A stretch of 64,000 nt of DNA, from assembly GCF_001078375.1 (NCBI RefSeq), contig NZ_DF967922.1, forward strand, positions 1 to 64,000, read 5' to 3'. The translations under genes and the position numbers were made by a program. The notes under the pieces are model-generated. The model saw nothing but the letters and a program-made list of their open reading frames with translations. It was not told the origin of the DNA and made no database searches. The number at the start of each line of letters is the position of its first letter. Position 1 is the first letter of the stretch. This DNA is from Veillonella tobetsuensis (GTDB lineage Bacteria > Bacillota > Negativicutes > Veillonellales > Veillonellaceae). Below are positions 2,188 through 5,409 of the stretch, in pieces.

Positions 2188-3522
2188 CTACTTAACAGGT
2201 CGGTCAGATAACATCACTGATTTGATATATTGATTTTTATCATCTAAGGCGAACTGTAAATAAGAATTACTCGACCTTGGATTTTTATACTCATACACCG
2301 TTGCAGTGCCTGTATTTGTTGCAGACTCCACTATACGCGTCGGCATACCATATACAAATAGCAATAGATATTTTGTATCACCCATGGCAATACCACGACG
2401 TGTCGGTGTATAGACGTTTAACAACACACGATTGATAAGCGACTTATCATCTACGCTAACGCCATACTCATTATAGCCAATGAATGTAGCACCAAATAGC
2501 ATTCCTTGAGTTCTCCACTCTGCATCCGCATCATTCACAAAATGTTGATTCAATCGTAAACCACGCAACACAAAATCATCGTCACTCAATTGCCCAGCAT
2601 GGAAATGATACATCGGAGCCTTTGGCAATCCGAAACGGGTCCAAACCTGTCCATCCAAAATATCAACAGCCTCTATCACATTATTTTTAACGGTGAAAGC
2701 CACATAGGATTTTCCGTTTTGAATAGAATCTGGAGATTGGCTATTATTATTTGTATTCGCTACGAGAGAAGTAAATTCCTTTTTTTCTGTCCATGAATTT
2801 TCCGCATGACCTTCATATAAAAAGATATATGATTCATCGGATTGGTTCCGCCACATCGCATTAGGACTACCATAAGAGAAAATCATCTCCATGCGGGAAC
2901 TACCTACACCAATATCACGAACAGTAACCAAACCTTTTTCTGTAGTATGTAAATTAGTAATAGTACCTACAGGAAATAAGTATGTAGCACCTTGTCCACG
3001 CAACTGATTTCCTTCTAGACGTGATTTATCCGGTCCAGTATACACCGTTATATCCATATCTTTTTCATGATACGTTGTAAATACACCTTTCACGGTCTTT
3101 TTAGTAGTAGCACTAGGCTTATATACATCACCAACGCGATATACAGGACCTATACTCGCAGTATCCTCGTCCGATTTCAAAGCTAAACTGTAGTCATCTT
3201 CTACACCAAGAGCTGGTAAATTATTAGATGTATACGAATGTCCTATATCAGATAAATTATTTTTTGAATCCTGTGGCATAACACCATCATTTTCGCTAGC
3301 AGCCTGCCAATATTGCAAAGAATCACCAAAAGCAGTAACTGCTAATTGTTCAGCTAGCCATCCACTTTTTGAGCGACTATCTGCAGCAGGTTCTTTCACA
3401 ACAACTATAGTATTCTTGATTTCTGGCACCGTTGTTTCTGCATCAACAGCCCCTACCGATACAGTTCCCATTGCACTTAGCACGGTTATAGTCAATGCTG
3501 CATGAGATAAGATTTTTTTCAT
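2188..3522 (-). CDS. Secreted protein with possible BamE/SmpA-like repeats
   Basis: A protein of 444 residues beginning with a classical signal peptide (MKK, hydrophobic core, AXA-like cleavage near residue 28), so exported to the periplasm or cell surface. After a low-complexity linker, segments around 200-290 and 365-440 share a pattern of small polar turn, hydrophobic helix, YGxP (YGSP, YGMP), then an aromatic strand and a second strand. This recalls the BamE/SmpA fold (GMxxxxVxxxLGxP) and is an inference. No lipobox is seen. The ATG overlaps the hypB stop and has its own GGAG. Function unknown; position in the hyp operon is not explained. Confidence 0.55.
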   Translation of the reverse strand: MKKILSHAALTITVLSAMGTVSVGAVDAETTVPEIKNTIVVVKEPAADSRSKSGWLAEQLAVTAFGDSLQYWQAASENDGVMPQDSKNNLSDIGHSYTSNNLPALGVEDDYSLALKSDEDTASIGPVYRVGDVYKPSATTKKTVKGVFTTYHEKDMDITVYTGPDKSRLEGNQLRGQGATYLFPVGTITNLHTTEKGLVTVRDIGVGSSRMEMIFSYGSPNAMWRNQSDESYIFLYEGHAENSWTEKKEFTSLVANTNNNSQSPDSIQNGKSYVAFTVKNNVIEAVDILDGQVWTRFGLPKAPMYHFHAGQLSDDDFVLRGLRLNQHFVNDADAEWRTQGMLFGATFIGYNEYGVSVDDKSLINRVLLNVYTPTRRGIAMGDTKYLLLFVYGMPTRIVESATNTGTATVYEYKNPRSSNSYLQFALDDKNQYIKSVMLSDRPVK

Positions 3523-4172
3523 TATCGACTCTCCATTTGTTTTCTAAGCCATGTTAACCATGGTACCAGACCATCTTTAACGGTACAACTGATTTCAAAC
3601 ACTTGGCCTTGAGGATTTAAATTACGAATATCTTTGATTGCCTTTTCCTTATCGAATGGTACATATGGTAAAAGATCAATCTTATTGAGCAATATAGCCT
3701 TTGATTCTTTAAAGATAAGTGGATATTTTAAGGGCTTATCTTCACCTTCTGTAACAGACAACACTGTGACTTTCACAGCCTCACCTATATCGAATTCTGC
3801 AGGGCATACTAAATTCCCAACATTTTCTATAATTATCATATCTAATGCATCAAGATCTAAATCAGATATAGCATCTTGAATCATATTAGCATCTAAATGA
3901 CAGCCGCCTACCGTGTTGATTTGAATGACAGGCACTCCAAGAGCATGAATGCGCTCAGCATCTTTAGAGGTAAATAAATCGCCTTCAATAACAGCCACAT
4001 TATAATCTTTTGCTAAATCTTGTAATGTTGCTTCTAATAACGACGTCTTACCCGCACCTGGAGAGCCCATTAAATTAAATACAAAGATATGTTTTTCTTT
4101 AAATATTTGTTGCAACGATGATGCAATGGCATCATTTTTTGCCAATACATTTGTTTTTACTTCTACTTGCAT
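3522..4172 (-). CDS. hypB: Hydrogenase/urease nickel incorporation GTPase HypB
   Basis: HypB is the SIMIBI-class GTPase that, with HypA, delivers nickel to hydrogenase apoprotein in the cytoplasm. The 216 residues hold the P-loop GSPGAGKT (36-43), the metal-site pair C91-H92 and C123 at the dimer interface, and the guanine motif NKID (163-166). The N-terminus has neither a histidine-rich nickel store nor the CxxCGC high-affinity site of E. coli HypB, so it is the minimal form. It follows hypA by seven bases and overlaps the next gene, indicating one operon. Only hypA and hypB are here; hypCDEF and the hydrogenase must lie elsewhere. Confidence 0.95.
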   Translation of the reverse strand: MQVEVKTNVLAKNDAIASSLQQIFKEKHIFVFNLMGSPGAGKTSLLEATLQDLAKDYNVAVIEGDLFTSKDAERIHALGVPVIQINTVGGCHLDANMIQDAISDLDLDALDMIIIENVGNLVCPAEFDIGEAVKVTVLSVTEGEDKPLKYPLIFKESKAILLNKIDLLPYVPFDKEKAIKDIRNLNPQGQVFEISCTVKDGLVPWLTWLRKQMESR

Positions 4173-4179
4173 ATATACC

Positions 4180-4521
4180 TCAATCTATATCAATAGATGT
4201 CACTTGTAGTTCTCGACCACCTATAGTGTTCACAAGACGACTTTCACAATGAGGACAGATAAATTTATAGTCTTGCACATCAAAGATAGTATCACAGTCT
4301 AAACATTGTCCTGTAATAGGGATGGTGTGAATATCGATTTTAGATGTTTCTGCCGGAGTACCTTTTGTTACCGCATCCCAGCAAAAGAACAATGCATCAG
4401 GTTCTACGCCACTCATTAAACCTAAATCAAGTTGTACGGAATGAATGATAGATGCATCATTATTTCTCATTGTTTCTAAAGCGATATCTAAAATCCCCTC
4501 AGCGATTGACATTTCGTGCAT
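4180..4521 (-). CDS. hypA: Hydrogenase nickel metallochaperone HypA
   Basis: A 113-residue zinc protein that binds nickel through its N-terminus and passes it to the hydrogenase large subunit with HypB. The start at 4521 is chosen because HypA proteins begin M-H-E and His2 is the nickel ligand; an ATG four codons upstream would bury it. The structural zinc site is C73-x2-C76 and C89-x2-C92. The first 23 bases overlap the end of the upstream folD-like gene, so translation of the two is probably coupled. Confidence 0.95.
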   Translation of the reverse strand: MHEMSIAEGILDIALETMRNNDASIIHSVQLDLGLMSGVEPDALFFCWDAVTKGTPAETSKIDIHTIPITGQCLDCDTIFDVQDYKFICPHCESRLVNTIGGRELQVTSIDID

Positions 4522-5341
4522 GATACGCCTCATAAACTGCTTCCAACATCATCGTCGTTGTAACGGAACCAACGCCACCAGGAACCGGTGTCATAGCAGA
4601 TGCAACACTACTCACCGCATCATAATCAACATCGCCTACTGTTTTACCATCTAGCTCATTGATACCTACATCAATAACAACGGCACCAGCCTTTACCATG
4701 TCTGCTGTAATCATATGTGCACGACCAGCTGCAGCGATTACGATGTCCGCCTCTTTAACATGACACGCCAAATCAGTCGTACGCGAATGACAGATGGATA
4801 CTGTAGCATGACGTTCAAGAGCCATCAACGCTACTGGTTTACCAATAACTTGACTTCGACCCACAACAACTACATGTTTTCCTTCTAAAGAAATCCCATA
4901 ATGATCTAATATAGCTAAACAAGCCTTAGCTGTACAAGGTGCAAAACCACCTTTACTAGCTGTTACGAGACCAATATTATAGGTCGTAAGACCATCGATA
5001 TCTTTTTTAGGACTTAAAGCATCAATTAATTGCTCCGTATCGATATCCTTTGGCATCGGCATAAGTGGCAAAATACCATGTACTGCATCATCGTTATTTA
5101 ATGACATCAATGCTTCATATACCTCTTCGTGACTTGCCGTACTAGGTAGTTGAGTGCGCACAAATCCATAGCCAAAATTCTTGGCTGTTTTTTCCATAAA
5201 ATCAGCATACATGTTTGCACCATGATCATCACCAACAAGTAATACCGCCATTGTAATAGTACCCGCTTCAAGGTTTGTCATTTTTTCTTGCAAAATAGCT
5301 TTATGTGCATCAGCTACAGCTTTACCACGTAATTCAATCAT
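4499..5341 (-). CDS. folD: Divergent FolD family protein (methylene-THF dehydrogenase/cyclohydrolase-like)
   Basis: FolD normally oxidises 5,10-methylene-THF and hydrolyses the product to 10-formyl-THF. The 280 residues align along the whole family: Y45, KKDIDG (112-117), APCT (134-137), GRSQVIGKP (161-169) and CHSRT. Two catalytic positions are changed: the lysine four residues after the tyrosine (YxxxK) is M49, and the glutamine of the VQLPLP motif is L93 in LPLMPMP. In known enzymes these residues are needed for the cyclohydrolase step, so this may be dehydrogenase-only or have another role. Start 5341 has GGAG six bases upstream; an ATG four codons earlier is less likely. First gene of an operon with hypA and hypB. 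Confidence 0.85.
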   Translation of the reverse strand: MIELRGKAVADAHKAILQEKMTNLEAGTITMAVLLVGDDHGANMYADFMEKTAKNFGYGFVRTQLPSTASHEEVYEALMSLNNDDAVHGILPLMPMPKDIDTEQLIDALSPKKDIDGLTTYNIGLVTASKGGFAPCTAKACLAILDHYGISLEGKHVVVVGRSQVIGKPVALMALERHATVSICHSRTTDLACHVKEADIVIAAAGRAHMITADMVKAGAVVIDVGINELDGKTVGDVDYDAVSSVASAMTPVPGGVGSVTTTMMLEAVYEAYHARNVNR

Positions 5342-5383
5342 AGTTATCTCCATTCTATTATACGCTATACAGAATTCTTATAT

Positions 5384-5409
5384 AAAAAGGTGCCTATAGA
5401 GGCACCTTT
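5384..5409 (-). terminator. Rho-independent terminator after the PBP gene
   Basis: A 10-base stem AAAGGTGCCT/AGGCACCTTT with a four-base loop, running into TTTTTAT on the minus strand. It closes the cca-PBP unit just before the folD-like gene. Confidence 0.85.

Follow-up and report, generated by a model that had tools for sequence, protein, structure and literature searches.

The folD-like gene that lies ahead of hypA and hypB in the window (the whole 64,000-nucleotide stretch of DNA analysed here) very probably encodes, to judge from sequence comparisons, a dehydrogenase-only FolD that works with a separate cyclohydrolase, FchA. Methionine and leucine stand in this protein where bifunctional FolD enzymes have the lysine of the YxxxK motif and the glutamine of the VQLPLP motif. 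A dehydrogenase-only enzyme was one of the roles offered by the first-pass annotation of this DNA, and it is well supported by comparison: the genome has a single FolD together with FchA and Fhs, and the loss of the two residues co-occurs with FchA across the clade. The window FolD would interconvert methylene-THF and methenyl-THF using NAD(P) and would no longer hydrolyse methenyl-THF to formyl-THF. FchA, encoded beside fhs elsewhere in the genome, would take over that hydrolysis, and Fhs would make formyl-THF out of formate. The hydrophobic side chains of Met49 and Leu93 may exclude the water or proton relay that hydrolysis needs. Of the two predicted activities, the dehydrogenase is probably present and the cyclohydrolase probably absent.

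Results and Discussion

A predicted FolD fold in which the catalytic Lys and Gln are replaced

The folD open reading frame (Table 1) runs to a stop at 4499 and has candidate ATG codons at 5353 and 5341 on the minus strand. A GGAG read six bases ahead of the ATG at 5341 favours that start, so the numbering Met49 and Leu93 is right; the alternative start would give M53 and L97. The annotation had placed these two residues at the motif lysine and glutamine, and both assignments were confirmed, pairwise against solved FolD sequences (the best four and the best five of 27) and in two multiple alignments (221 and 309 rows). Thus, of the features of bifunctional FolD, the YxxxK lysine and the VQLPLP glutamine are absent from the window protein, and Tyr45 and Asp114 are present. 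Every one of the 28 genomes in f1, the family to which the window belongs (taken as Veillonellaceae from named loci), has the identical Met/Leu pair, and so do nine named Veillonella-type loci (L006-L014, which overlap partly with the sampled genomes and are kept out of the 200-genome counts below), ruling out chance or assembly error as its source. A lysine supplied from a nearby position was also sought in the sequence. The candidate, K51, lies two residues past Met49 (Y+6) and is no replacement, since lysine or arginine is equally usual there in canonical FolDs (59 of 67 representatives) and in those without the catalytic pair (90 of 93).

Table 1. Positions of features in the window
Feature	Position	Strand	Description	Basis
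folD-like gene	4499..5341	minus	280 aa; 284 if start is 5353	
Met49 codon	5195..5197	minus	YxxxK lysine position	Sequence and multiple alignments
Leu93 codon	5063..5065	minus	VQLPLP glutamine position	Sequence and multiple alignments
Tyr45 codon	5207..5209	minus	Substrate-stacking Tyr, kept	Alignment; invariant in A1
Asp114 codon	5000..5002	minus	Pterin-binding Asp, kept	Alignment; invariant in A1
hypA	4180..4521	minus		PF01155, 111.4 bits (cut-off 28.9)
hypB	3522..4172	minus	7 bases past hypA	TIGR00073, 271.5 bits (cut-off 121.2)
444-residue protein	2188-3522	minus	Overlaps hypB end	
Small P-loop ATPase	1697-2161	minus	Downstream of hyp operon	NCBIfam, 97.6 bits (cut-off 50); PADLOC BrxF
Terminator-like hairpin	5385..5409	minus	GGTGCC-loop-GGCACC, then TTTTT	By eye; not listed by scan
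Promoter-like site	5357..5386	minus	TTTATA-18-TATAAT, just upstream of folD	10/12 matches

The remainder of the protein is that of a FolD. It matches PF00763 (91.4 bits) and PF02882 (204.3 bits), both above the curated cut-offs, and the multiple alignment shows that cofactor and substrate residues are retained in FolDs lacking both the catalytic Lys and Gln (hereafter noKQ; canonical FolDs keep both). In the AlphaFold model the mean pLDDT is 96.8, and the whole length superposes on the MTHFD of T. thermophilus (Z 41.1, 1.1 A over 275 residues); on these grounds the modelled protein keeps the FolD fold intact and differs in its catalytic pair. It reaches the cut-off of none of the 25 listed of 33 matched NCBIfam 'bifunctional' FolD models (best 270.8 against 421), a result that is weakly telling because L041, a canonical FolD from the window's class, reaches the cut-off of 3 of the 25 listed of 30 such models.

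The rest of the folate pathway in the genome

The first-pass annotation had raised the matter of a second folD and of fhs and fchA. There is no second folD: the window gene accounts for the one PF02882 match in the whole genome, ruling out a canonical copy elsewhere. Both fhs and an FchA-type gene were found. The one Fhs of the genome is encoded at C17:45504-47165, and the fchA candidate directly downstream (C17:44854-45396) specifies a standalone FTCD_C protein of 208 residues that matches PF04961 with 220.3 bits (cut-off 24.5). Its sole NCBIfam match at E <=1e-10 is FchA (E 1.1e-61), with a score below the cut-off of that model (208 against 275). With FchA in the cell, cyclohydrolase activity would not be needed in FolD.

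Loss of the lysine and glutamine co-occurs with FchA

For the window's class, Negativicutes to judge from named relatives, FolD residues were compared with FTCD_C matches in a sample of 200 genomes, a match with E under 1e-40 being termed strong FchA. Strong FchA is present in 106 of the 107 noKQ-bearing genomes, that is, in 103 of 104 with noKQ FolD only and in all three that also have a canonical copy, and in 14 of the 81 canonical-only genomes, or 29 of 81 if the 15 with weak matches (1.4e-4 to 4.1e-38) are counted. All four genomes of the class with other departures from the Lys/Gln pair have strong FchA. A readable FolD is absent from eight of the 200 (G037, G051, G102, G142, G144, G154, G166 and G190), seven of which have strong FchA; also dropped from the count were one of two gene fragments in G136, a partial sequence (L147), the weak second match of G075, and L225, which duplicates L027.

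The pattern recurs outside the class. In a clostridial sample (the class of G211, the genome of L018, an uncultured Eubacteriales member; 91 of 118 genomes read), FchA accompanies noKQ FolD in 38 of 39 genomes (35 strong, three weaker, one none), FolD with Lys replaced by Gln in three of three, and canonical FolD in one of 49. One of the 39 noKQ assignments, L301, has a masked Lys column and was omitted from the representative alignment and tree. The sample includes seven genomes without a FolD match, two of which, G299 and G313, have FchA; 20 genomes with solely high-scoring matches were left out, among them G285, which has FchA, and a second, high-scoring FolD of G222 lies outside the residue reading. 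Among other named genomes (L015-L025, of which L018 belongs also to the clostridial sample), an FTCD_C match is found in four of four noKQ members, two of these matches being gene pieces at contig ends, and in none of seven canonical members; the four are uncultured Eubacteriales, Bacillota, Coriobacteriales and a Spirochaetaceae bacterium. When sequences were reduced to representatives below 75% identity (n=165), strong FchA was present with 92 of 98 departed and 8 of 67 canonical FolDs, or 97 of 98 and 12 of 67 including weak matches. Two genomes, G134 and G251, are exceptions that carry noKQ FolD with no FTCD_C match. The control genomes for the FTCD_C search, T. maritima and D. chartae, have both the FolD and the FTCD_C families.

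Within the fetched flanks, fchA adjoins noKQ folD in 12 of 107 genomes and canonical folD in none of 81. It lies directly downstream of folD in all three loci of family f29 (L044, L051 and L095), where Lys is kept and Gln has become Glu; these FolDs are a second, separate departure that likewise goes with FchA. In four further sequences (L146; L268, L273 and L275) Lys has become Gln and Gln is kept, and all four genomes have strong FchA.

Origin and nature of the substitutions

Two trees were built, both by quick searches and both with long branches, and each places the noKQ proteins in a single clade. In the 94-row tree the 59 noKQ rows share a branch (SH-aLRT 97), and a single change accounts for the 93 noKQ rows of the combined tree (support 82). 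The combined tree has two changes between canonical and departed states and gives two independent pairs, with FchA on average going in the same direction in 1.9 of the two. Two pairs are not enough for a sign test; the 94-row tree gives one, with FchA differing in about 0.2 of random pairings. The statistics are limited because noKQ forms a single clade with few origins, and Fisher tests were not relied upon because they treat genomes as independent and so overstate the case.

The replacing residues are of few kinds. At the Lys column, 163 sequences without Lys have Leu (57), Met (48), Ala (37), Ile (11), Val (6) or Gln (4); at the Gln column, 162 without Gln have Leu (66), Met (51), Phe (41), Glu (3) or Thr (1). 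The 159 noKQ sequences have Leu, Met, Ala, Ile or Val at the first site and, except for one Thr, Leu, Met or Phe at the second. Both columns, as aligned, are thus held hydrophobic in the noKQ clade and are not drifting, and the keeping of a hydrophobic pair suggests a site reshaped so that methenyl-THF would escape hydrolysis. Two genomes have two different noKQ FolDs each (L057 and L204 in G119, L215 and L216 in G095); one copy carries Ala/Phe or Ile/Phe, the second Leu/Leu.

Evidence from mutant enzymes

Sah and Varshney, in 2015, reportedly found that the K54S form of E. coli FolD is a dehydrogenase without cyclohydrolase activity. The first-pass annotation took Lys and Gln to be needed for cyclohydrolase action in the enzymes studied, and this stands for E. 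coli and fails for silkworm single mutants. In the accessible text of PMC5688156, E. coli K54N keeps about 19% of dehydrogenase activity with undetectable cyclohydrolase, and Q98H keeps about 8% and about 1%, respectively. The excerpted data of PMC6443876 give silkworm K53A and Q97A cyclohydrolase kcat/Km values of 0.097 and 0.22 (wild type 0.13); both mutants retain both activities, and the table has no double mutant. Loss of one residue therefore need not abolish the cyclohydrolase. A computational study of human MTHFD2 doubts, in its available portion, that Lys or Gln is the catalytic base, and a role for the lysine is still possible there (PMC9173628).

On these data the residue argument alone is not decisive, and the co-occurrence with FchA weighs most. 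The active silkworm mutants favour the view that the window FolD is still bifunctional, with bound water or other residues sustaining a weak cyclohydrolase and FchA serving just as extra capacity. So does the presence of FchA beside canonical FolD, in 14 of the 81 canonical-only genomes of the class and in one clostridial genome, which is a point against the dehydrogenase-only reading. We consider continued bifunctionality improbable, however, given the inactivity of E. coli K54N as a cyclohydrolase and the existence of an entire clade that lacks both residues and nearly always has FchA. FchA itself is perhaps not strictly required, since E. coli strains without cyclohydrolase grow and the step also occurs spontaneously, according to the portion of PMC5688156 available.

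Linkage to hypA and hypB

The folD and hypA genes overlap by 23 bases when measured from the MHEMSI start of hypA, as the first-pass annotation had it. HypA scores just under its NCBIfam cut-off (84.3 against 88.1). Upstream, a terminator-like hairpin separates folD from a penicillin-binding protein gene; the promoter-like site listed in Table 1 is one of 15 in the region, against 16.4 expected by chance. Downstream, the protein of 444 residues has an N-terminus that by eye resembles a signal sequence, and it matches nothing in Pfam or NCBIfam; its gene follows hypB in 24 fetched loci, all of family f1 or of named Veillonella type. Beyond it, the small P-loop ATPase matches BrxF of BREX-3, and a BrxF-like gene occupies the same place in 10 fetched loci.

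Neighbours were sought with phmmer, using the window's own proteins, in fetched flanks of about 1.5 to 5 kb. The pairing of folD with hypAB is real and recurs in relatives, in 6 of 35 families (f1, f6, f10, f11, f27 and f28). In family f1, folD adjoins hypA in 28 of 28 genomes, with an overlap of 8, 23 or 35 bases in 22 of them, the hypA start motif not being found in the other six. The two FolD types have opposite gene orders around fhs: in 75 of 81 genomes, as at locus L041, canonical folD immediately precedes fhs, and in 46 of 107 noKQ folD lies directly downstream of it.

HypA and HypB handle nickel, not the CO ligand of hydrogenase. The linkage nevertheless invites the proposal that the window FolD supplies one-carbon units for hydrogenase maturation, as the first-pass annotation suggested, or even that this is its main role. 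In its favour, folD adjoins hypA in 35 of 107 noKQ-bearing genomes from six families and in none of 81 canonical-only genomes, 68 of which have HypA; and in family f6, where the order is fhs, folD, HycI-type protease, hypA, hypB, a hydrogenase protease lies between the two. But 48 of the 104 noKQ-only genomes keep the FolD without a HypA above the cut-off (47 of these 48 with strong FchA), and 22 more have HypA away from folD. Gene neighbourhood is moreover a weak guide, because a penicillin-binding-protein homologue is close to folD in 70 of the 107 noKQ-bearing genomes, and folD may also follow fhs, as described above. Nor was a HypX-like fusion of formyltransferase and enoyl-CoA hydratase found in the genome, whose two PF00551 open frames, of 211 and 358 aa, read as PurN and Fmt, the second lying beside def (by eye). 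The [NiFe] hydrogenase large subunit is encoded on another contig than folD. A hydrogenase-specific role is therefore unsupported, and a main role in maturation is very unlikely. The gene order fhs-folD-(HycI protease)-hypA-hypB could still mark a dedicated C1 branch in hydrogenase hosts, with FolD and Fhs feeding the anaerobic source of the CO ligand; that source is unknown and may be C1 metabolism, according to the text accessible in PMC12134894, so a link is conceivable, though we give it very little credence. In our reading, folD-hypA-hypB is an old arrangement retained as an operon, whose neighbouring genes would be co-transcribed with no shared pathway.

Least credible of all is the loss of both activities, which would make the protein a pseudoenzyme: a part in hydride transfer has also been proposed for Lys56 and Gln100, in the accessible part of PMC3368264, but this is the sole FolD of the genome, FchA would have no obvious use if the dehydrogenase were missing, Rossmann and substrate residues are conserved over a divergent clade, and dehydrogenase activity survives in the E. 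coli and silkworm single mutants.

Relation to known systems

The nearest parallel to the proposed dehydrogenase-only enzyme is C. perfringens FolD, which Aluri et al., in 2016, are said to have found to be dehydrogenase-only and to work with separate FchA and Fhs. As in the window's genome, there is reportedly one FolD with separate FchA and Fhs. We know of no hypAB link for the C. perfringens gene. The bifunctional FolDs (E. coli 1B0A, human MTHFD1 1A4I, T. thermophilus 6V6Y) share with the window protein the fold, both Pfam domains, the substrate Tyr and Asp and the cofactor residues; unlike them, the window FolD has Met/Leu for Lys/Gln and a separate cyclohydrolase in its genome. Yeast Mtd1 (1EDZ) is a distant, eukaryotic relative (Z 30.5, 24% identity) that, by the title of Barlowe and Appling 1990, is a monofunctional NAD-dependent dehydrogenase of the superfamily, like the role proposed here; a passage citing that paper says 'only cyclohydrolase function', contradicting the title.

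In acetogens with fhs-fchA-folD clusters, as in the window's genome, fchA accompanies folD, whether in one operon or in the same genome. The available sections of two papers report fchA with folD, in a syntrophic acetate oxidiser, where folD is called a plain dehydrogenase (PMC3584212), and in most of a set of acetogens, where it is called bifunctional (PMC10103890); the catalytic residues are left undiscussed in those sections. HypX, by whose route the hydrogenase CO ligand is made from formyl-THF, ties folate C1 units to [NiFe] maturation in the excerpt of PMC12134894; unlike such systems, the window's genome yielded no HypX, and its two formyltransferases read as PurN and Fmt. No statement of a rule that joins Lys/Gln loss to FchA was found in the literature searched, which covered few subscription papers, and the accessible parts of PMC6529473 (Veillonella RNA-seq) and PMC12844395 hold nothing bearing on it.

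Implications

By its sequence, the window FolD belongs to an ordinary type of enzyme, and it is the family name that misleads; the present comparison contributes the residue signature, shows how widely it occurs, and records hypAB as a recurring neighbour. Since carolacton binding to E. coli FolD needs Lys54 (PMC5688156, accessible text), we predict that the Met/Leu enzyme, in which the counterparts of E. coli K54 and Q98 have changed, is insensitive to this compound. A large clade that lies nearest to the curated 'bifunctional FolD' models is probably not bifunctional, and if so, metabolic models of Veillonella and of many other sampled genomes would be affected. The two residues together with FchA would make a simple annotation rule.
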